Origin: a virus
Virus record (IMG/VR): IMGVR_UViG_3300025147_000038
Span: 1 to 26,052 of that record
Direction: 5' to 3' (one strand)
Length of the DNA: 26,052 nucleotides
The number at the start of each line of letters is the position of its first letter. Position 1 is the stretch's first letter. The translations under genes and the position numbers were made by a program. The notes beneath the pieces were generated by a model. It was not told where the DNA came from. It did not search any database and worked only from the letters and a program-made list of their open reading frames with translations. This document shows positions 6,229-25,896 of the stretch, in pieces.

Positions 6229-6383
6229 ATCTAATCAAGGAGTGATTATTTCCTAATCTTTTATATTATAGTAACGTTATATTCCATTAATAACTGCAAA
6301 AGGGCTGTCAATATCTTGTCAATGTCGCTATTTAGACTGGTTTGATTCGTTATTATGGAGTTTTGTTGTTGATTCTTTATATA

Positions 6384-6553
6384 TAGACGGAACTTTTAGA
6401 GAGTTTAATCTTATTCTTTACATATTGAGAGTTTGTTTTATTAATTTGATGAGGTTTAACTCTTTAGGTTATAATTTTAAAGAAAATAAGGATTAAAAGA
6501 ATCCAACTCAAAAGAGGAGTATAGTAATACAGTGATGTTGTTTTTTGTCCACT
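6384..6553. repeat. Non-coding direct repeat, copy A (~170 bp)
   Basis: Starts with TAGACGGAACTTTTA and ends with GTTTTTTGTCCACT, as copy B does. The last 36 nt (6518-6553) are identical to 7304-7339; the rest is clearly homologous with scattered substitutions. An internal hairpin, GGATT-AAAAG-AATCC (6490-6504), is kept in both copies with a loop of different length, and a weaker stem GAGAGTT/AACTCTT lies upstream. No ORF is kept between copies. Confidence 0.8.
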
Positions 6554-6752
6554 ACAGTTTTGTCATATTTTATGTATAATAAAGAGAATTCTGGACACAA
6601 TAAAAAAAGAAGAGATTGTTAAATCTCCTCTTGATATCTCACGCTATTAGCGATTTTGATTGGGTTTGAAAATAATTGTGAAGTAGCTACTATAACCTAT
6701 TTACTTTTGATTTTTTGGAGGTTATACTCATATTAACAAGTGAGTGTTTAAG

Positions 6753-7024: not shown

Positions 7025-7170
7025 GCGTTCACAACGCTATAAAATGCCCTACAATCGTTTTAAGGTTGTAGAGCTAATATTTGTACCAATTAATTGTTAA
7101 ATGTGCTTAGAATTGATTCTGTGAGCTTATGATGTTATTCTAAATGGAATGTTGAGTATTGCTTTAAGTG

Positions 7171-7339
7171 TAGACGGAACTTTTACTTCTTTAGGTCTTA
7201 TTCTTTATATAATAGATAGTTTGTTTTATTATTTTGATGAGGTCTATCTCTATAGGTTATAATTTAAAAGAAAAATAGGATTAAAGAATCCAACTCAAAG
7301 ATTAGTATAGTAATACAGTGATGTTGTTTTTTGTCCACT
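7171..7339. repeat. Non-coding direct repeat, copy B (~169 bp)
   Basis: Homologous to copy A in the same orientation, 787 bp away start to start. It keeps the GGATT-AAAG-AATCC hairpin (7278-7291) and the identical 36-nt 3' end. Sequence just before the repeats (ATGGA...GTTG...ATT..TTT) is also weakly similar, so the true unit may reach about 200 bp. AT-rich sequence with TATAAT follows both copies (6575-6580, 7372-7377). Confidence 0.8.
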
Positions 7340-7377
7340 TAGGATTAGTGATATTTTTAGGTCTATACTTCTATAAT

Positions 7378-7544
7378 AATAGAAACAGATAACATGAGTA
7401 TCTGGTAGTCGTTAATGTATATTGCTTGGTCGGACGAGTGGCATATACAGACTTTAATGGGGTTTACATAGTTTCCACAATCTGAATAGGGTGAAACCGA
7501 ACGAAAATATGTTAAGGAGCTATTTGATTGATAGCTTCTTTTTT
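7378..7544 (+). ncRNA. Candidate plus-strand structured RNA ending at a terminator inside the resolvase gene
   Basis: After TATAAT at 7372-7377 (no good -35 found) come three local hairpins: CAGATA/TATCTG (from 7386), GTATAT-T-GC / GCATATAC around 7418-7449 with an inner CTTG/CGAG stem, and GGTTT/AAACC (about 7461-7465 with 7494-7498). The segment ends at the terminator 7514-7544. It contains the 14-nt word AAACCGAACGAAAA (7494-7507), also present in the structured RNA at 12343-12356. GC content is higher than in surrounding spacers. Existence and ends are inferred. Confidence 0.4.
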
Positions 7545-8090
7545 ATTTGCCATTCTATAAAAGGTACCTCTATTAAGATTTAATCTTTTCATAGCTTCTG
7601 TGGCTGTTATTTCTCCACTCTTCCATATCTTAACCACTTGATTGAAATTTACTGGTTCTTGTATTATTGGGCGTCCTAATCTTTGACCCTTTGCCTTGGC
7701 AGCATCTATCCCCTCTCTCTGACGTTGTAATATGCTTTCACGTTCCAATTCTGACAACGCTCCGAATAGAGTCAATACAAATCTACCTTGTGGAGTTAAA
7801 GTGTCTATATGCTCCTTTAAGGACACCAGAGCGACGTTCTTATTTTGGAGACGTTCTACTATGGATAATAAGTCTCTTGTACTCCTAGCAAGTCTTGATA
7901 TGCTCTCTACATACAATACGTCACCGTCTCTAACATAACTAAGCATTTTTGTTAGCTCTGGTCTGTTTATATCTTTACCAGATATTTTCTCAGAATAGAT
8001 TTTATCCATACCTATTTGTTTTAATGCTATTTCTTGCCTATCTATATGCTGGTCGATTGAAGATACTCTGATGTAACCTATATTAGCCAT
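7512..8090 (-). CDS. Small serine recombinase (resolvase/invertase family)
   Basis: 192 aa. N-terminal catalytic domain with the nucleophile in IGYIRVSS (Ser10), the arginine-rich active-site segment ESISRLARSTRDL (about 62-74), and the long E-helix region ALSELERESILQRQREGI. The C-terminal helix-turn-helix (about 145-180, ITATEAMKRLNLNRGTFYRMA) binds the recombination site. Length is that of Tn3/Hin-type small serine recombinases. With a res-like array directly upstream and partition genes elsewhere, resolution of genome multimers is the likely role; DNA inversion is the alternative, but no inverted-repeat-flanked tail-fibre segment is seen. ATG follows AGGGGTGATGTT. Confidence 0.93.
   Translation of the reverse strand: MANIGYIRVSSIDQHIDRQEIALKQIGMDKIYSEKISGKDINRPELTKMLSYVRDGDVLYVESISRLARSTRDLLSIVERLQNKNVALVSLKEHIDTLTPQGRFVLTLFGALSELERESILQRQREGIDAAKAKGQRLGRPIIQEPVNFNQVVKIWKSGEITATEAMKRLNLNRGTFYRMANKKEAINQIAP
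7514..7544 (+). terminator. Intrinsic terminator, plus strand, overlapping the resolvase 3' codons
   Basis: Stem AAGGAGCTAT (7514-7523) / ATAGCTTCTT (7531-7540) with one G.T pair, loop TTGATTG, then six T (7539-7544). The same bases encode the last residues of the resolvase on the other strand. Its T tract is on the plus strand only, so it would stop transcription coming from the non-coding region towards the resolvase. Confidence 0.7.
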
Positions 8091-10383: not shown

Positions 10384-10977
10384 TTATTTGTATGTATATT
10401 CTTTTACAAGGGTTACGTTAAGCCCCTCTGCATATACGTCTTTTTCTTGTTCAAGTTTGCCGTAGTTTTCAGTTATAATCTCAAAAGCGTAGGTACTGGA
10501 CTCTGTTATGATTACACTATCAACAGTGGAGCCCAGCTCTAATTTTTCCGCTCTATCCCAATATTCACGTTCTATATGGGTTCTCAATTCTAAGATTGTA
10601 TGTTTGTATTCTTGTTTTAGGTCTTGTTCATTTTTCCATTGAAATGAAGAGTTATTGGTTTGTGATTCAAGGTACACTTTGCAATACTGGGCTGATAATT
10701 TTTCATCGTGATAAGCACTGGTACTATGATACTTACAATTTTCTTGTCCAAATTCCTTGGCCATAAATTTATAACCTTTTTCATTTAGTTTATAATAGGT
10801 GCCTCTTGAATTTTTAATCTCTTCTAAAATGCCTTGCTTCATATAATTTTTGACTCTTGCCTCTGAAATGAAATTTTTGAGCTGGTCTCTGTTTGCATGA
10901 CAAGTATTGAGAAGCATTTTGTATAATTCCTTATCCCTCGAATTCATAGTTGATATATAGTTTTTTAATTTTGCCAT
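10384..10977 (-). CDS. Winged-helix protein, replication-relaxation-like layout, 197 aa
   Basis: ATG with AGGAGGTTTTTCAA upstream. The first ~85 residues form a winged helix: NRDQLKNFISEARVKNYMKQGILEEI, then GTYYKLNEKGYKFM as the wing. The C-terminal part has a strand pair STVDSVIITESSTYAFEIITENYGK that recalls a restriction-fold core (Asp...Glu-x-Ile), though the usual Lys is missing. This N-wHTH/C-alpha-beta arrangement is seen in replication-relaxation family proteins of plasmids and phages; assignment is tentative. It overlaps no gene and is followed after 14 bp by the 212-aa gene. Confidence 0.6.
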   Translation of the reverse strand: MAKLKNYISTMNSRDKELYKMLLNTCHANRDQLKNFISEARVKNYMKQGILEEIKNSRGTYYKLNEKGYKFMAKEFGQENCKYHSTSAYHDEKLSAQYCKVYLESQTNNSSFQWKNEQDLKQEYKHTILELRTHIEREYWDRAEKLELGSTVDSVIITESSTYAFEIITENYGKLEQEKDVYAEGLNVTLVKEYTYK

Positions 10978-11044: not shown

Positions 11045-11560
11045 TTAAAACATAAATCTAAGTGCATATCTCCAACCACCTTGAATGTCTTTATCTTCGG
11101 CTCTATCAAGATTTTCATGAGTTATCATAGTATACATCCACCAGCGTTTTTCTCTTGTTAACATAAGCCAGTTACTTTTTGATATTAATAATCTTTCTAT
11201 ATTTTTTGAATTGTCCATGTCTAAATGTTCAGTAGCCCAGATTAGTATTAATAATTCTTTTCCTAAATTTCTATCAATTCGTGTATCTCCATCCTCTACC
11301 CAGTAGCCAGCATCCATATTTTCTTCTTTTAGACTTATGTTAAAGTCTTTTTCTATACATTTTTTTAACTGCATCCAGAGTATTAAAGATATAGTAGCTC
11401 TTACTTTATAGTTTACGTCTCCTATATTTGATATTGTTCTCTCTGCTATTGTTACTGATTGTGCTGCATTATCAATATGTAATGTGTAATAATTTCTTGA
11501 ATACTCGTTGTATCCATATTCAATAGTGTCTGTATGTCTTGTATATAGGTTATTTTTCAT
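11045..11560 (-). CDS. DUF3780-like protein, second of a tandem pair
   Basis: 171 aa, ATG with AGGAGGAAAATAAC upstream. It shares with the next gene upstream the order TIEYGY (start), LxxWMxxKK, K-N/E-DM-AG-W, TR-(D/N)-LG-ELLIL-W-TEHLD and a C-terminal GWR/NWR-A-(L/V)-(R/K)-(F/Y)-M. The C-terminal part (GKELLILIWATEHLD, EKRWWMYTM, GGWRYALRFMF) closely recalls the DUF3780 family, known from multi-gene anti-phage loci, by its WA-E, RWW-YTM and GWR-A motifs; I recognise this from memory, not a search. Standing alone in a phage it may be an anti-defence decoy or a defence moron. Confidence 0.6.
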   Translation of the reverse strand: MKNNLYTRHTDTIEYGYNEYSRNYYTLHIDNAAQSVTIAERTISNIGDVNYKVRATISLILWMQLKKCIEKDFNISLKEENMDAGYWVEDGDTRIDRNLGKELLILIWATEHLDMDNSKNIERLLISKSNWLMLTREKRWWMYTMITHENLDRAEDKDIQGGWRYALRFMF

Positions 11561-11585: not shown

Positions 11586-12071
11586 TTATTGAAGCATGTA
11601 TTTAACTGCTCTTCTCCAATTTTCAGCAGATGTATCAACTTTCATATGTAGATATCGTAATTCTATGGTTGAAAGGTTAGCCCAGCATCTGGTTGCTATT
11701 ATTAATTTTTCTTTATCTTCTGGTTTTCTAATGTCTAAATGTTCTGTACCCCAAAATAATATTAATAATTCATCGCCTAATATTTTATTTAGTCTTGTAG
11801 TACCATTTTTGTTCCAACGTCCAGCATACATATCTTCGTTTTTAAGAGTTTCATTAAGTCTTATTTCTACACCTTTTTTTATAATCATCCAGTGTTCTAA
11901 TGTTATTTGAGACTCTAATTCTTCTTCAAAAGTACCATTACTTATACATCCTTTACATTTGTAAATTGTTACAACCTTATATTCTTCATTGACAAGTAAT
12001 CCATAGTAGCAAAATGAATGTTGTTCTTCTAAATACCCATATTCGATTGTTTTTATTTTAGTAGTTTTCAT
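11586..12071 (-). CDS. DUF3780-like protein, first of a tandem pair
   Basis: 161 aa, ATG with AGGAGGATAAATA upstream. Paralogous to the following gene over its whole length: TIEYGYLEEQ, LEHWMIIKKG, NEDMYAGRW, TRLNKILGDELLILFWGTEHLD, and NWRRAVKYML at the end. The RWW-YTM motif of the other copy is replaced by ELRYLHMKV, so the two have diverged in what may be the functional core. A CKGC pair (about residues 39-42) is unique to this copy. It is first in the operon behind a divergent promoter region. Function as for its twin; the family call is less certain for this copy. Confidence 0.55.
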   Translation of the reverse strand: MKTTKIKTIEYGYLEEQHSFCYYGLLVNEEYKVVTIYKCKGCISNGTFEEELESQITLEHWMIIKKGVEIRLNETLKNEDMYAGRWNKNGTTRLNKILGDELLILFWGTEHLDIRKPEDKEKLIIATRCWANLSTIELRYLHMKVDTSAENWRRAVKYMLQ

Positions 12072-12147: not shown

Positions 12148-12176
12148 ATTATAATAGTTTTTTGCATAATAGCTAA
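12148..12176 (-). promoter_or_regulatory. Possible minus-strand promoter for the DUF3780-like operon
   Basis: On the minus strand TTAGCT (12171-12176), 17-bp spacer, TATAAT (12148-12153). The -10 is perfect, the -35 weak. It is divergent from the plus-strand promoter at 12242-12270, with a large inverted repeat between them. Confidence 0.35.
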
Positions 12177-12214
12177 ATATTCTTAAATAATCTTAAAGTA
12201 TGAATATAATATGA

Positions 12215-12275
12215 CTATTACTATGGATATACTTTTACATTTTGAAAGTGGAGTATGTATATACTATAGTAATAG
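12215..12275. repeat. Long inverted repeat at the ncRNA promoter, possible operator
   Basis: CTATTACTAT (12215-12224) plus ATATAC (12227-12232) face GTATAT (12257-12262) plus ATAGTAATAG (12266-12275), giving 10-bp and 6-bp matching arms with small offsets. The right arm covers the -10 of the plus-strand promoter and the end of its spacer, as an operator would. The centre holds the -35 TTGAAA. Confidence 0.55.
12242..12270 (+). promoter_or_regulatory. Vegetative-type promoter for the structured RNA
   Basis: TTGAAA (12242-12247), 17-bp spacer, TATAGT (12265-12270). Predicted transcription start is about 12276-12280, just before the GC-rich structured segment. No plus-strand gene follows, which supports a non-coding transcript. 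Confidence 0.65.
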
Positions 12276-12276
12276 G

Positions 12277-12545
12277 ATATATATATGTAACGGCAAGGCT
12301 TGCAAAGTCTGGCTTAACCAAGACCTCGAAGGCTACTAACCTAAACCGAACGAAAAACGGGATTTATCGAAGGTTCAAGAGCGTAGCGAGGGAACCTGGT
12401 GCTGAAAGCACGATAAAGACCGCTCGCTTCTGTCATTGTAGATGTCACGTAAGGGACATTTACAATGCGTATGAATGGACATGATAATGTCCAGAGTACG
12501 AAGAAGTTTGTAGAGAGGTTTAGGTTTATTCCATTTTTGCTTTTC
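12277..12545 (+). ncRNA. Candidate structured non-coding RNA, unassigned class
   Basis: The segment is far richer in GC than its surroundings and folds by eye into nested helices. Outer stem: AACCTAAACC (12338-12347) with GGTTTAGGTT (12517-12526), perfect 10 bp. Inside, CGG-GA-TTTATCG (12358-12369) pairs with CGATAAA-GA-CCG (12411-12422), with a GA/GA internal loop; it encloses AGGTTC/GAACCT (12371-12376/12392-12397) and GTGC-TGAAA-GCAC (12399-12411). Then a 13-bp hairpin (12434-12446/12455-12467, one G.U) and GGACAT-GATA-ATGTCC (12477-12492) on CGTA/TACG. Loop AGCGAG (12385-12390) can pair with CTCGCT (12423-12428), a pseudoknot. 5' of the outer stem, GTCTGG/CC-A-AGAC (12307-12324) forms a hairpin. 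The 3' end is uncertain; U-rich sequence follows the outer stem. Confidence 0.75.
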
Positions 12546-12682
12546 TTTTATTATTTACCTTTGAGGCATACATGAAAGTATTGGCGTATAAGGTTACTTT
12601 TCTCTGGTATTTTTAAAGGTGGGTGGAAAATTGATTTTTTTTATTTATAAAATAATCGATTGGCAGTGACATTTTTTTATAT

Positions 12683-12711
12683 AAAAAAGAAGAGCTTTTT
12701 AAGGCTCTTCT
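12683..12711 (-). terminator. Intrinsic terminator, minus strand
   Basis: Minus-strand GAAGAGC / GCTCTTC (12704-12710 with 12689-12695), 8-nt loop, then six T. It follows the 76-aa gene and shields the non-coding region from read-through. Confidence 0.8.
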
Positions 12712-12717
12712 GGGGTG

Positions 12718-12948
12718 TTATTTCATTACATCTTGTATTCTTTTAGCAAGTTCTGCTTGAAAAATAGCACTTTGCATTTCTTCAAGTGTAAAATCATCGA
12801 TATCAATTCTATCAAATATTTTATCTAACTCTTTATTTACTGTTTGCTTAACAACATTTCTTAAACTACTTAATATTATTGTTTTCATACCTACTTTTAC
12901 TTGTTCTTCCATTTCTGACTTAAGTTCAGCTTCGTTAAATTGTATCAT
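12718..12948 (-). CDS. Small charged helical protein, 76 aa
   Basis: The start is placed at ATG 12948 (MIQFNEAEL) because AAGGAGG lies 8-9 nt upstream; the open frame extends further but without a binding site. The protein is almost entirely amphipathic helix, rich in K, E, D and I/L (ELKSEMEEQVKVGMKT, RNVVKQTVNKELDKIF, EEMQSAIFQAELAKRIQ). No family recognised. It overlaps the end of the upstream 44-aa gene by 14 bp, implying translational coupling. Confidence 0.65.
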   Translation of the reverse strand: MIQFNEAELKSEMEEQVKVGMKTIILSSLRNVVKQTVNKELDKIFDRIDIDDFTLEEMQSAIFQAELAKRIQDVMK

Positions 12949-13069
12949 TATTATTACCTCCTTCACTATATTTGATAAGCATATCTCCAAGTTTCATAAT
13001 TACCCACGAAAGTGGGAATAGAATGAGTAATGTTTTTTCTAAATTGTCACAGTCTTTAAACTTTTTCAT
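12935..13069 (-). CDS. Small single-pass membrane protein, 44 aa
   Basis: ATG at 13069 with AAGGAG 9 nt upstream, running to TAA at 12935. The sequence has a charged N-terminus (MKKFKDCDNLEK), one hydrophobic stretch (about residues 13-32, TLLILFPLSWVIMKLG) and a polar, Asn-rich tail. The tail codons contain the ribosome binding site of the next gene. It is too short for family assignment; its strong binding site and tight coupling argue that it is real. Confidence 0.55.
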   Translation of the reverse strand: MKKFKDCDNLEKTLLILFPLSWVIMKLGDMLIKYSEGGNNNDTI

Positions 13070-17244: not shown

Positions 17245-17364
17245 AAAAAAAACCTCCTTTATCAAATTAATTAAATTAATGGTTAGACATAAGTCATCAC
17301 AATAATTAATCGATTTGATAAGAAGATTTACGTTAAATCATATACATATAAACACTCTAAGTTA

Positions 17365-17393
17365 TTGACTTAGAACTTATTATAGTATATAAT
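17365..17393 (+). promoter_or_regulatory. Strong vegetative-type promoter reading towards parA
   Basis: TTGACT (17365-17370), exact 17-bp spacer, TATAAT (17388-17393). The -35 lies in an inverted repeat CTAAGT-TATTG-ACTTAG, a possible operator. The nearest plus-strand gene is parA, 300 bp further on, with terminators between. Confidence 0.75.
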
Positions 17394-17399
17394 TCTCTT

Positions 17400-17487
17400 A
17401 TCGGATATAAATCAATTAGTTTTTTTGCAGAAAACTAAATGTCTCAGCAAGAATTGGGTACCAACCAGTTCTTGTTTTTATTTTTTG
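17400..17487 (+). ncRNA. Short leader RNA with two hairpins and an intrinsic terminator
   Basis: Two stems follow the promoter: TTAGTTTT / AAAACTAA (17416-17423/17431-17438, 7-nt loop) and the terminator CAAGAATTGG / CCAGTTCTTG (17448-17457/17465-17474, one T.G pair) with TTTTTATTTTTT after it. The predicted product is about 80 nt. It may be an attenuated parA leader or a small regulator of replication or partition. Confidence 0.55.
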
Positions 17488-17550
17488 TATAGGTATTTTT
17501 GTTATTATTTTTGTACTTGTTTAAAAGTATACTTCATATTCCAATATCTT

Positions 17551-23712: not shown

Positions 23713-24243
23713 CTAGAACCAATCGTCTCCAGCTGGTATTCTTGTTACTTGATTGCTTTGATTTTTTTTATTTGGTTGTTCATAATATTTGTTTAATTTT
23801 TTTATAAAATTTAAGAATTCTCGAAACGTTAAATTGTAGATATCAAATGGACTTGTATTAAATTCTTTAGAAATTAATATCACATTATCAAACAATACTT
23901 CTGTTATTTTTTGGTTATCATTATTTGATGTCGTTGTTGCTTTGGTATCTACTTTGTTTGACGATGTACACTCAATAACTGCAAATAATATCTCTTCAAA
24001 ACAATTGGTTAATATATCTGGGTCAAGGGTTAATACTGTCTCAGAATCTATATCAAAAATATCTGTTAAGATATCGTTTAAGGCTACTTGATTGTTGATG
24101 TAAATATTGACTAAATCCAATTTGGTTAACTCTGATTTTAGCTCAGATTCAATTATTTCTAATATATCGACTGCATCTTTTAGTTTTATTTTCTTACCCT
24201 CTTTTTTATAGGTTTTTGTATCTGTAATGAGTGTTATGAGCAT
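23713..24243 (-). CDS. Tail assembly chaperone (gpG/GT-like, apparently one continuous ORF)
   Basis: 176 aa, ATG with GGAGGTGATGAT upstream. Position between tail tube and tape measure, an acidic helical N-terminal region (about 1-95) and a second region TEVLFDNVILISKEFNTSPFDIYNLTFREFLNFIKKLNKYYEQPNK fit the G and T parts of tail assembly chaperones. In many phages these are joined by a programmed frameshift; here both parts read in one frame. A run of eight A near the 3' end (around 23765) gives no long extension in the -1 frame. The assignment rests mostly on context. Confidence 0.65.
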   Translation of the reverse strand: MLITLITDTKTYKKEGKKIKLKDAVDILEIIESELKSELTKLDLVNIYINNQVALNDILTDIFDIDSETVLTLDPDILTNCFEEILFAVIECTSSNKVDTKATTTSNNDNQKITEVLFDNVILISKEFNTSPFDIYNLTFREFLNFIKKLNKYYEQPNKKNQSNQVTRIPAGDDWF

Positions 24244-24266
24244 ATCATCACCTCCTTAATTTAAAA

Positions 24267-24299
24267 AAAGGAAGAAGAATGTTGTTTTCTTCTTCCTTT
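24267..24299 (-). terminator. Perfect 13-bp hairpin with T-run between tail tube and chaperone genes
   Basis: AAAGGAAGAAGAA (24267-24279) pairs perfectly with TTCTTCTTCCTTT (24287-24299), loop TGTTGTT. On the minus strand seven T follow. It lies inside the tail operon and would reduce expression of downstream genes relative to the abundant tube protein. Confidence 0.8.
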
Positions 24300-24338
24300 G
24301 ATATTGATTAGATTTCAGTTAAATTTAGTTAAGCTTAA

Positions 24339-24374
24339 TTAAATTGTATTAAGATTGTAGTTAAATTGTATTAA
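24339..24374. repeat. Tandem copies of TTAAATTGTATTAA
   Basis: The 14-mer is at 24339-24352 and 24361-24374, 22 bp apart, just downstream of the tail tube stop and upstream of the hairpin. Related AGTTAAATTTAGTTAA words precede it. Possibly simple-sequence drift. Confidence 0.4.
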
Positions 24375-24376
24375 AT

Positions 24377-24988
24377 TTAAACTGTCTTAATTAGTGCTGC
24401 AAGCGTATCTGGGGTTTGGATAGCGTTGAAATACTGTGTAAAATTAAGTTTGTCATACGAACTATCTGATGTTATTGACTTAGCTGGTTCTCCAGTTTTC
24501 GTAAATGAATGATTAGTAGATATACAAGTAACTTTTAGTGTCTGGTTAGTTGAATCTGTACTATCATTTTGAGATTTAGACGCTTCGTCTGGTGGTAGAA
24601 TCTTGCATTTTAGTCTTGATACATATCTGTAATTATTTTTAGTATCTTTAGTTCTATAGGTAATAGCAAAATAGTCAGCTGTTGGTACTCCATTATCAAT
24701 AAATGTACCAGTAAGAATGTCAAATGTTTTACCAGTAATTTTAGCTAATGTTTCTAAATCTAGTACTGATACTACGATAGTAAGTTCATCTGCACCCTCT
24801 GCTGCTATAACTATTGCTGGTATATTGTCATAATAACTTGTCTTACTTGCTGTACTTGTAGTTTTTTGGATTTCTGCAATTCTGGATAATTGTTTTGGCA
24901 CCTCGCATGTATAAGCTAAGTCAGTATCTGCTGTAATTTTCGCAAAATTTAATTGGTCTACACCACGGTATTCTATTGCATCTTTCAT
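24377..24988 (-). CDS. Major tail (tail-tube) protein
   Basis: 203 aa, ATG with GGAGGTTACTAATA upstream. Its size, position (after head-tail joining and tail completion genes, before chaperone and tape measure) and beta-rich profile identify the tail-tube subunit. Features include DLETLAKITGKTFDILTGTFIDNG and YFAITYRTK...LKCK, as in phage major tail proteins that bind a neighbouring subunit through a long loop. A diverged paralogue with a C-terminal extension is encoded at 8558-9337. The internal terminator downstream suits high expression. Confidence 0.85.
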   Translation of the reverse strand: MKDAIEYRGVDQLNFAKITADTDLAYTCEVPKQLSRIAEIQKTTSTASKTSYYDNIPAIVIAAEGADELTIVVSVLDLETLAKITGKTFDILTGTFIDNGVPTADYFAITYRTKDTKNNYRYVSRLKCKILPPDEASKSQNDSTDSTNQTLKVTCISTNHSFTKTGEPAKSITSDSSYDKLNFTQYFNAIQTPDTLAALIKTV

Positions 24989-25110: not shown

Positions 25111-25443
25111 TTATTTGGTGGCGTAGGCGAAAAACATCTTACCTATGTGAGTATCCTCATCACTTAATGCATCCACTGGCATACTTGTCTGTATTTCATT
25201 GTCTCTTAATAGCTTTCTGGTTTGCCTAATTTCCTCATCCAAGGTCGTTATGTCATTTGTGTAATAATAAATAATATATTGATATTTACAAATTGTGGGT
25301 TCGTTATCATAATATTCTTCATCAGCACTGGTGAGAAAAAATGTGAAGAATGATAGAGGATATGTATCCTCATTGGTTAGACTCCCTTGTTTATAGCAAG
25401 GTAACCCTCTGGTCTCTAACAGTGTTATTAATTGTTCATCCAT
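25111..25443 (-). CDS. Tail completion/terminator-like protein
   Basis: 110 aa, ATG with GGAGGCGACTAAAAAT upstream. The sequence has the pattern LLETRGLPCYKQG, YPLSFFTFFLTSADEEYYDNEP, YQYIIYYYTNDITTLDEEIRQTRKLL found in small head-tail joining or tail-terminator proteins between the gp10-like and tail-tube genes. It would stop tail-tube growth and link it to the head. The order of genes supports this strongly; the exact subfamily is not fixed. Confidence 0.7.
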   Translation of the reverse strand: MDEQLITLLETRGLPCYKQGSLTNEDTYPLSFFTFFLTSADEEYYDNEPTICKYQYIIYYYTNDITTLDEEIRQTRKLLRDNEIQTSMPVDALSDEDTHIGKMFFAYATK

Positions 25444-25458
25444 ATTTTTAGTCGCCTC

Positions 25459-25896
25459 CTAAGTTAGATATTGTGATAAGAACTCATCAAAATGTGCTTC
25501 AAATATTCTACTAATTTCTTGGTTTGTCTTCTTACTATACATTGCATTAACAGCTGTTTTAGAAGGTTTAATCCTTGGAGTACCATATATTAGGTACTGA
25601 CTTACTAATGACTGTGATATGTCAAATCCTACGTATACTCTATATCCTCCACCCTTCATCTCTTTTATTTTTGGAGCAGTTAGGAGTGTACTTTTTACAT
25701 CTCCATGTTTATCCCAATTTACAGTCTTCCCATTTGATTTAAGCTTTGTTATTGCTTGGTTAAAATTGCCTTGAATCTGATGGAATGCATCCTTTAATGC
25801 TTCTTGTGCCAGAGCGTCTAATACTGATTGCTCTATATCGTTTTCTATGGCTTTCATACGTAAAAAATCACCAGTAAATGTTATTGTTTTTCCCAT
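25459..25896 (-). CDS. HK97 gp10-like head-tail joining protein
   Basis: 145 aa, ATG with AGAGGTGATATTTA upstream. N-terminal amphipathic helix (MKAIENDIEQSVLDALAQEALKDAFHQIQ), a middle with GGGYRVYVGFDISQSLVSQYLIYGTPRIKPSKTA and C-terminal helical EEISRIF-type end (QEISRIFEAHFDEFLSQYL), matching HK97 gp10 family neck proteins (the 'YGT.. kPs' segment is characteristic). It connects head completion and tail. Confidence 0.8.
   Translation of the reverse strand: MGKTITFTGDFLRMKAIENDIEQSVLDALAQEALKDAFHQIQGNFNQAITKLKSNGKTVNWDKHGDVKSTLLTAPKIKEMKGGGYRVYVGFDISQSLVSQYLIYGTPRIKPSKTAVNAMYSKKTNQEISRIFEAHFDEFLSQYLT

Follow-up and report, generated by a model that had tools for sequence, protein, structure and literature searches.

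A candidate orphan structured RNA in a probable Clostridia phage-plasmid

What lies at positions 12277-12545 of this 26,052-nt virus record, a stretch between two minus-strand operons where the GC content reaches 45%, compared with 19% in the left flank and 29% in the right? An earlier note, made from the letters of the same DNA, had pointed to the raised GC content and had proposed a highly structured plus-strand RNA in the accessory region of a phage-plasmid. To evaluate that proposal, we analysed the window (by which we mean the whole 26,052-nt stretch) for coding potential, fold stability, known RNA families and homologues. The GC values agree with what the note had reported. The stretch at 12277-12545 is non-coding and stands alone between neighbouring genes, and its predicted fold makes it a genuine candidate for a strongly folded orphan RNA on the plus strand.

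Genomic setting and limits of the RNA

The record carries tail genes, including that of a tape measure protein, together with genes for a serine recombinase, a ParA ATPase and a replication protein (Rep), and its TerL gene runs off the left end. The closest named relatives of TerL belong to a human faecal phage and to Butyrivibrio phages, and TerL is also ~40-45% identical to the proteins of prophage-like loci, mostly in Clostridia genomes. The relatives of Rep are encoded on plasmids of Clostridioides, Paraclostridium and Sarcina (~25-28% identity). Given these phage and plasmid affinities, the record is a phage-plasmid, most likely with gut-type Clostridia as its host group. The co-occurrence of Rep, ParA and TerL in one record bears out the proposed setting.

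To the left of the RNA region, a divergent DUF3780 gene (11586-12071, minus strand) starts at 12071. To the right is a convergent gene (12718-12990, minus strand) with a terminator of its own at 12688-12711 (minus strand); this right-hand flanking ORF encodes at most 90 aa and has no assigned family. The DUF3780 gene is one of two that adjoin each other (the second at 11045-11560, also minus strand) and are 40% identical. DUF3780 has been proposed to be a modification reader of Type-2 BREX-related defence systems (PMC12839542). The pair has no visible DUF499, methylase or helicase partner next to it, so these two genes could conceivably act in counter-defence or as decoys.

The sole plus-strand ORF listed across the RNA region has a TTG start at 12242, inside a promoter hexamer, and would encode 80 aa. 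No Pfam family matches it above the curated cut-off (the best has E 0.064), PHROG likewise yields none, and the region thus has no supported ORF.

The predicted free-standing RNA (12277-12545, plus strand) would take its 5' end from a candidate sigma-70 promoter and its 3' end from a U-rich stretch at 12533-12549. The placement of the 3' end is a guess, and a search for an intrinsic terminator on the plus strand of the RNA region found none. The promoter that had been described, TTGAAA-17-TATAGT, is present as hexamers at 12242-12270 (plus strand), and it is their position that supports them. As a match the promoter is no better than chance: promoter-like sequences number 10 against 8.9 expected in the region and 11 against 11.7 in the window. 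A perfect 10-bp inverted repeat, CTATTACTAT / ATAGTAATAG (12215-12224 / 12266-12275; 100% complementary, with 41 nt between the arms), flanks the candidate -35 hexamer, and its right arm overlaps the candidate -10. The repeat is a possible operator pair. The sequence TATAGTAATA, which overlaps the right arm (12266-12275), recurs at 6520 and 7306 within duplicated non-coding elements of the same record.

Stability, strand and predicted fold

The stability of the region is concentrated in a core domain at 12338-12526, which folds with -72.6 kcal/mol, compared with -41.6 +/- 4.0 kcal/mol in dinucleotide shuffles (z -7.7 to -8.3, with 500 and 200 shuffles; the best of the 500 reached -57.6). For longer segments, z is -4.36 at 12270-12550, where 0 of 200 shuffles folded equally well, and -5.2 to -5.5 at 12290-12540 and 12290-12535, and the 5' domain (12290-12337) is ordinary (z -0.02). 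When both strands of the 26 kb were divided into 414 segments of 250 nt, the RNA region ranked second and third.

In the predicted plus-strand fold, an outer helix, P1 (GGCAA/UUGCU, 12292-12296/12537-12541; mean pair probability 0.81), encloses a 5' stem-loop and the core. The stem-loop (12297-12334) pairs 12297-12301 with 12330-12334 and has an inner helix at 12307-12312/12318-12324. The core is closed by the 10-bp helix P2, AACCUAAACC / GGUUUAGGUU (12338-12347/12517-12526; helix probability 0.91), whose strands lie 179 nt apart from start to start with 169 nt between them. After P2, the junction contains an A-rich strand, GAACGAAAAA, that is predicted to be unpaired. Pair probabilities of the core helices are mostly above 0.9.

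Two arms branch from this junction. Arm A (12358-12422; pair probabilities 0.93-0.99, z -3.99) is built from the helix CGG/CCG, a GA/GA internal loop (12361-12362/12418-12419), the helix UUUAUC/GAUAAA and two hairpins (12371-12397 and 12399-12411). Arm B rests on the helix GCUUCU/AGAAGU (12426-12431/12502-12507; probability 0.88) and also carries two hairpins. One of these has 13 bp, including one G-U pair (CAUUGUAGAUGUC / GACAUUUACAAUG, 12434-12446/12455-12467; probability 0.99, z -5.8). The other is GAUA-capped and reads CGUAU-GAA-UGGACAU-GAUA-AUGUCCA-GA-GUACG (12468-12500; probability 0.97-0.99, z -5.5); in its internal loop GAA faces AGUA, letters that would suit a sarcin-ricin (loop E) motif. 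The long closing stem, the GA/GA loop and the 13-bp hairpin had all been noticed before, and each is present in the computed fold. Another detail of that description, a loop-to-flank pseudoknot, fares differently. The letters AGCGAG/CUCGCU (12385-12390/12423-12428) are indeed complementary and could form it, but such a pairing arises in 23.5% of shuffles and does not exceed chance. It would compete with a nested helix, CTC/GAG, that is itself weak (probability 0.44).

The two strands differ in the composition of their unpaired bases. In the plus-strand fold of the core, the 55 unpaired bases comprise 28 A, 19 G, 7 T and 1 C; those of the minus-strand fold comprise 28 T, 25 C, 12 A and 2 G. In natural structured RNAs, purines and especially A are over-represented among the unpaired bases. 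Because the unpaired bases of the core are mostly A and G on the plus strand, we take this to be the RNA strand. The bias, the z-scores and the ranking among segments together support the proposal of a highly structured plus-strand RNA.

The exposed bases, which are nearly all A or G, are located in junctions and internal loops, and this suits tertiary contacts and protein binding. On these grounds we favour, at slightly less than an even chance, an independently transcribed plus-strand non-coding RNA of ~250 nt that acts in trans as a protein scaffold or decoy. Such an RNA would fold compactly by means of its long closing helix, the junction with its unpaired A-rich strand and the two branched arms, and it would hold, or divert, a protein. 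Its use would probably fall during plasmid life or host take-over, although the timing is a guess.

Among the rivals of this reading two are stronger than the rest, a DNA element and a regulatory sRNA of antisense type. As a DNA element, the region would serve replication, packaging or recombination, its hairpins acting as single-stranded DNA or as cruciforms bound by protein. Consistent with this, both strands are far more stable than their shuffles (z ~ -7 for the minus strand of the core), and the phage-plasmid carries replication and partition genes. Counter to this, the unpaired letters are strongly one-sided, as in natural RNAs, and the distance to Rep and to the repeat-rich stretch between Rep and ParA is 3-5 kb. 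We therefore consider a DNA element improbable, even if it survives better than any other rival. Next comes the antisense-type regulatory sRNA, with phage or host mRNAs as its pairing targets. Regulatory sRNAs encoded by phages are well documented (PMC12197685), and the region has a promoter-like site of its own, but no complementarity of at least 12 nt was found elsewhere in the 26 kb. Furthermore, the sole unpaired C in the core disfavours the pyrimidine-seed type, and the RNA is too elaborate for a simple antisense. This explanation, too, has only a small chance of being correct.

A motif in common with drum RNA

The same phage encodes a drum RNA (RF02958; 7407-7515, plus strand; 61.8 bits, E 9.4e-11), a member of an Rfam sRNA family for which we found no described function. 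The 14-mer AAACCGAACGAAAA of the new RNA (12343-12356, plus strand) has an exact copy at 7494-7507 within the drum RNA. None of 1,500 shuffles yielded a common 14-mer, and the longest match among them was 12; drum was chosen for comparison only after the motif had been seen. In drum, the 14-mer falls on the conserved 3' strand of the consensus, CCGAAAGAAAA, after a helix; in the new RNA, GAACGAAAA is predicted to be mostly unpaired and to bridge two helices. The 3' half of the drum consensus also aligns colinearly with the 5' 67 nt of the new RNA. Comparable alignments occur in ~4% of shuffles.

A 14-mer that is identical in both RNAs and falls where drum is conserved, together with a colinear alignment, is what might be expected of a diverged drum-like RNA with added domains. 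However, the drum covariance model has no match in 12150-12750 up to E 10, the drum profile likewise has none, and the predicted fold and the helix partners around AAACCGAACGAAAA differ between the two RNAs. We assign a low probability to common origin of this kind. Because both model and profile miss the RNA region, the common 14-mer could be due to chance or could represent a small exchanged piece.

We read the 14-mer as a hint at one partner for both RNAs rather than at common descent. Returning to the scaffold or decoy reading, a single putative partner is suggested because the exposed motif beside the closing helix is repeated exactly in drum; this partner may hold both RNAs. It is possible that the new RNA opens a class of its own, for which there is a single sequence. 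In a bolder form, it would be the first of a class of ornate phage-plasmid RNAs in which the unpaired motif CC-GAACGAAAA after a helix, as in drum, binds one common protein. We regard this as unlikely; were it true, two unrelated folds would serve one phage-encoded or host ribonucleoprotein. A strongly folded orphan RNA of ~250 nt that includes the drum motif would provide a handle of testable size for finding the protein partner.

The drum RNA is convergent with the serine recombinase gene (7512-8090, minus strand) and lies just past the end of that gene. Among 199 genomes sampled from the phylum, 3 had a drum RNA, in 2 of them above the cut-off. Directly upstream of the drum RNA is one copy of a duplicated non-coding element of ~195 nt (6375-6571 and 7162-7357, plus strand), the copies being 76-88% identical in blocks. 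Just one compensatory change was seen between them, and neither copy alone is clearly above chance in stability.

Known RNA families and the search for relatives

No Rfam 15 family matches the RNA region at its gathering threshold, and at E up to 10 there are only weak matches, mostly to unrelated names. The most plausible of these names is Clostridiales-1 (RF01699). The hairpin at 12466-12502 resembles model positions 79-116 in its internal loop, 7-bp stem, GAUA loop and trailing CGAA, in a match that scores 15.5 bits (E 0.42), where 48 are required, and that leaves the rest of the model unmatched. A sub-threshold Clostridiales-1 RNA in MT835488.1 (13969-14120; 36.1 bits, E 7e-8) was considered as a relative and rejected, as it lies outside the phage part of that record and its fold differs. 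Judged from their ORFs, the two genes that flank it resemble the housekeeping genes purF and purB, an indication that part of this 'phage' record is host chromosome. With regard to a retron msr-msd, the ORF list of our record, a fragment, contains no reverse transcriptase, and the neighbours are DUF3780 and the ORF of at most 90 aa.

The earlier note had also raised the possibility of a divergent ROOL or GOLLD RNA. These RNAs are often located near tRNA islands. Both are non-coding RNAs of bacterial phages, large, structured and of unknown function, and many GOLLD members exceed 800 nt and have a conserved 3' region (PMC12286853). The new RNA is like them in being phage-encoded, structured and ornate and, as for ROOL, in having no neighbouring protein partner (PMC12286853). 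Thus, it might be imagined to form an RNA-only complex of their type, a multimeric cage. In contrast to GOLLD, its structured unit is far shorter, at ~250 nt. The ROOL and GOLLD covariance models have no match, whether at gathering or with E relaxed to 10, and the 26-kb record, a fragment, contains no tRNA or tmRNA and hence no tRNA island, although such islands are frequent rather than invariable neighbours of ROOL. Membership of either family is not upheld by these results, and a cage of this type is quite unlikely.

Relatives were sought by several routes. BLAST of 50,697 phage and 72,556 plasmid records found no homologue; the one phage match covers 9% of the query, at 12630-12675, which is downstream of the RNA. 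In IMG/VR, four DNA patterns returned no homologue among the matches listed, and a pattern allowing 3 mismatches found none in 299 genomes. Exact-pattern matches to GAGCGTAGCGAGGGAACC (two loci) and CCGAAMGAAAAACGGGA (six loci) were set aside, since they have no similarity beyond the pattern. A single-sequence covariance model was run around genes related to TerL and Rep, in loci and in genomes, with stricter filters for sets of more than 40 genomes. Scans of 398 genomes of a phylum and 381 of a class with this model gave no homologue, nor did ~1,200 genomes and records in all, in draws that partly overlap; a model derived from a single sequence would miss distant relatives, so that its silence is weak evidence of their absence. 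Four weak matches (13-20 bits) all lie within long coding frames or antisense to them and were attributed to chance.

Relatives defined by their genes gave the same picture. The RNA is present in none of 80 genome loci and 80 IMG/VR loci with related TerL, mostly 33-45% identical, and the only near-identical records are two fragments that do not cover the RNA site. It is absent from the nine records with related Rep that were searched whole. No relatives were obtained via DUF3780 or via 10384-10977. If no relative exists, present family libraries cover viral RNAs poorly. A single sequence for which no homologue was found might also be a chance or decaying sequence with palindromes, but we consider this very unlikely, given that the core is 15 kcal/mol more stable than the best of 500 shuffles. 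Weakest of all, and highly improbable, is an orphan guide-type RNA (omegaRNA/HEARO-like) for a host effector: the RNA is comparable in size and compactness to HEARO and omegaRNA, which are multi-helix RNAs of mobile elements, but RF02033 has no match here, whereas it matches 6 of 7 IscB loci in a positive control (119-170 bits), the IscB loci have no similarity to the RNA region, and no IscB, IsrB or TnpB gene was recognised beside the RNA, downstream of which there is no supported plus-strand ORF and the next gene (12718-12990) is on the minus strand.

Other parts of the record also have low folding energies. The intergenic region between Rep and ParA (17251-17500) folds as well as the RNA region (z ~ -6 on the plus strand and -5.2 on the minus strand), contains several repeats and inverted repeats, and is possibly an origin or partition site. 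The segments 24126-24500 and 25251-25500 (plus strand; z ~ -4.3 to -4.9) lie for the most part opposite tail-region genes encoded on the minus strand.
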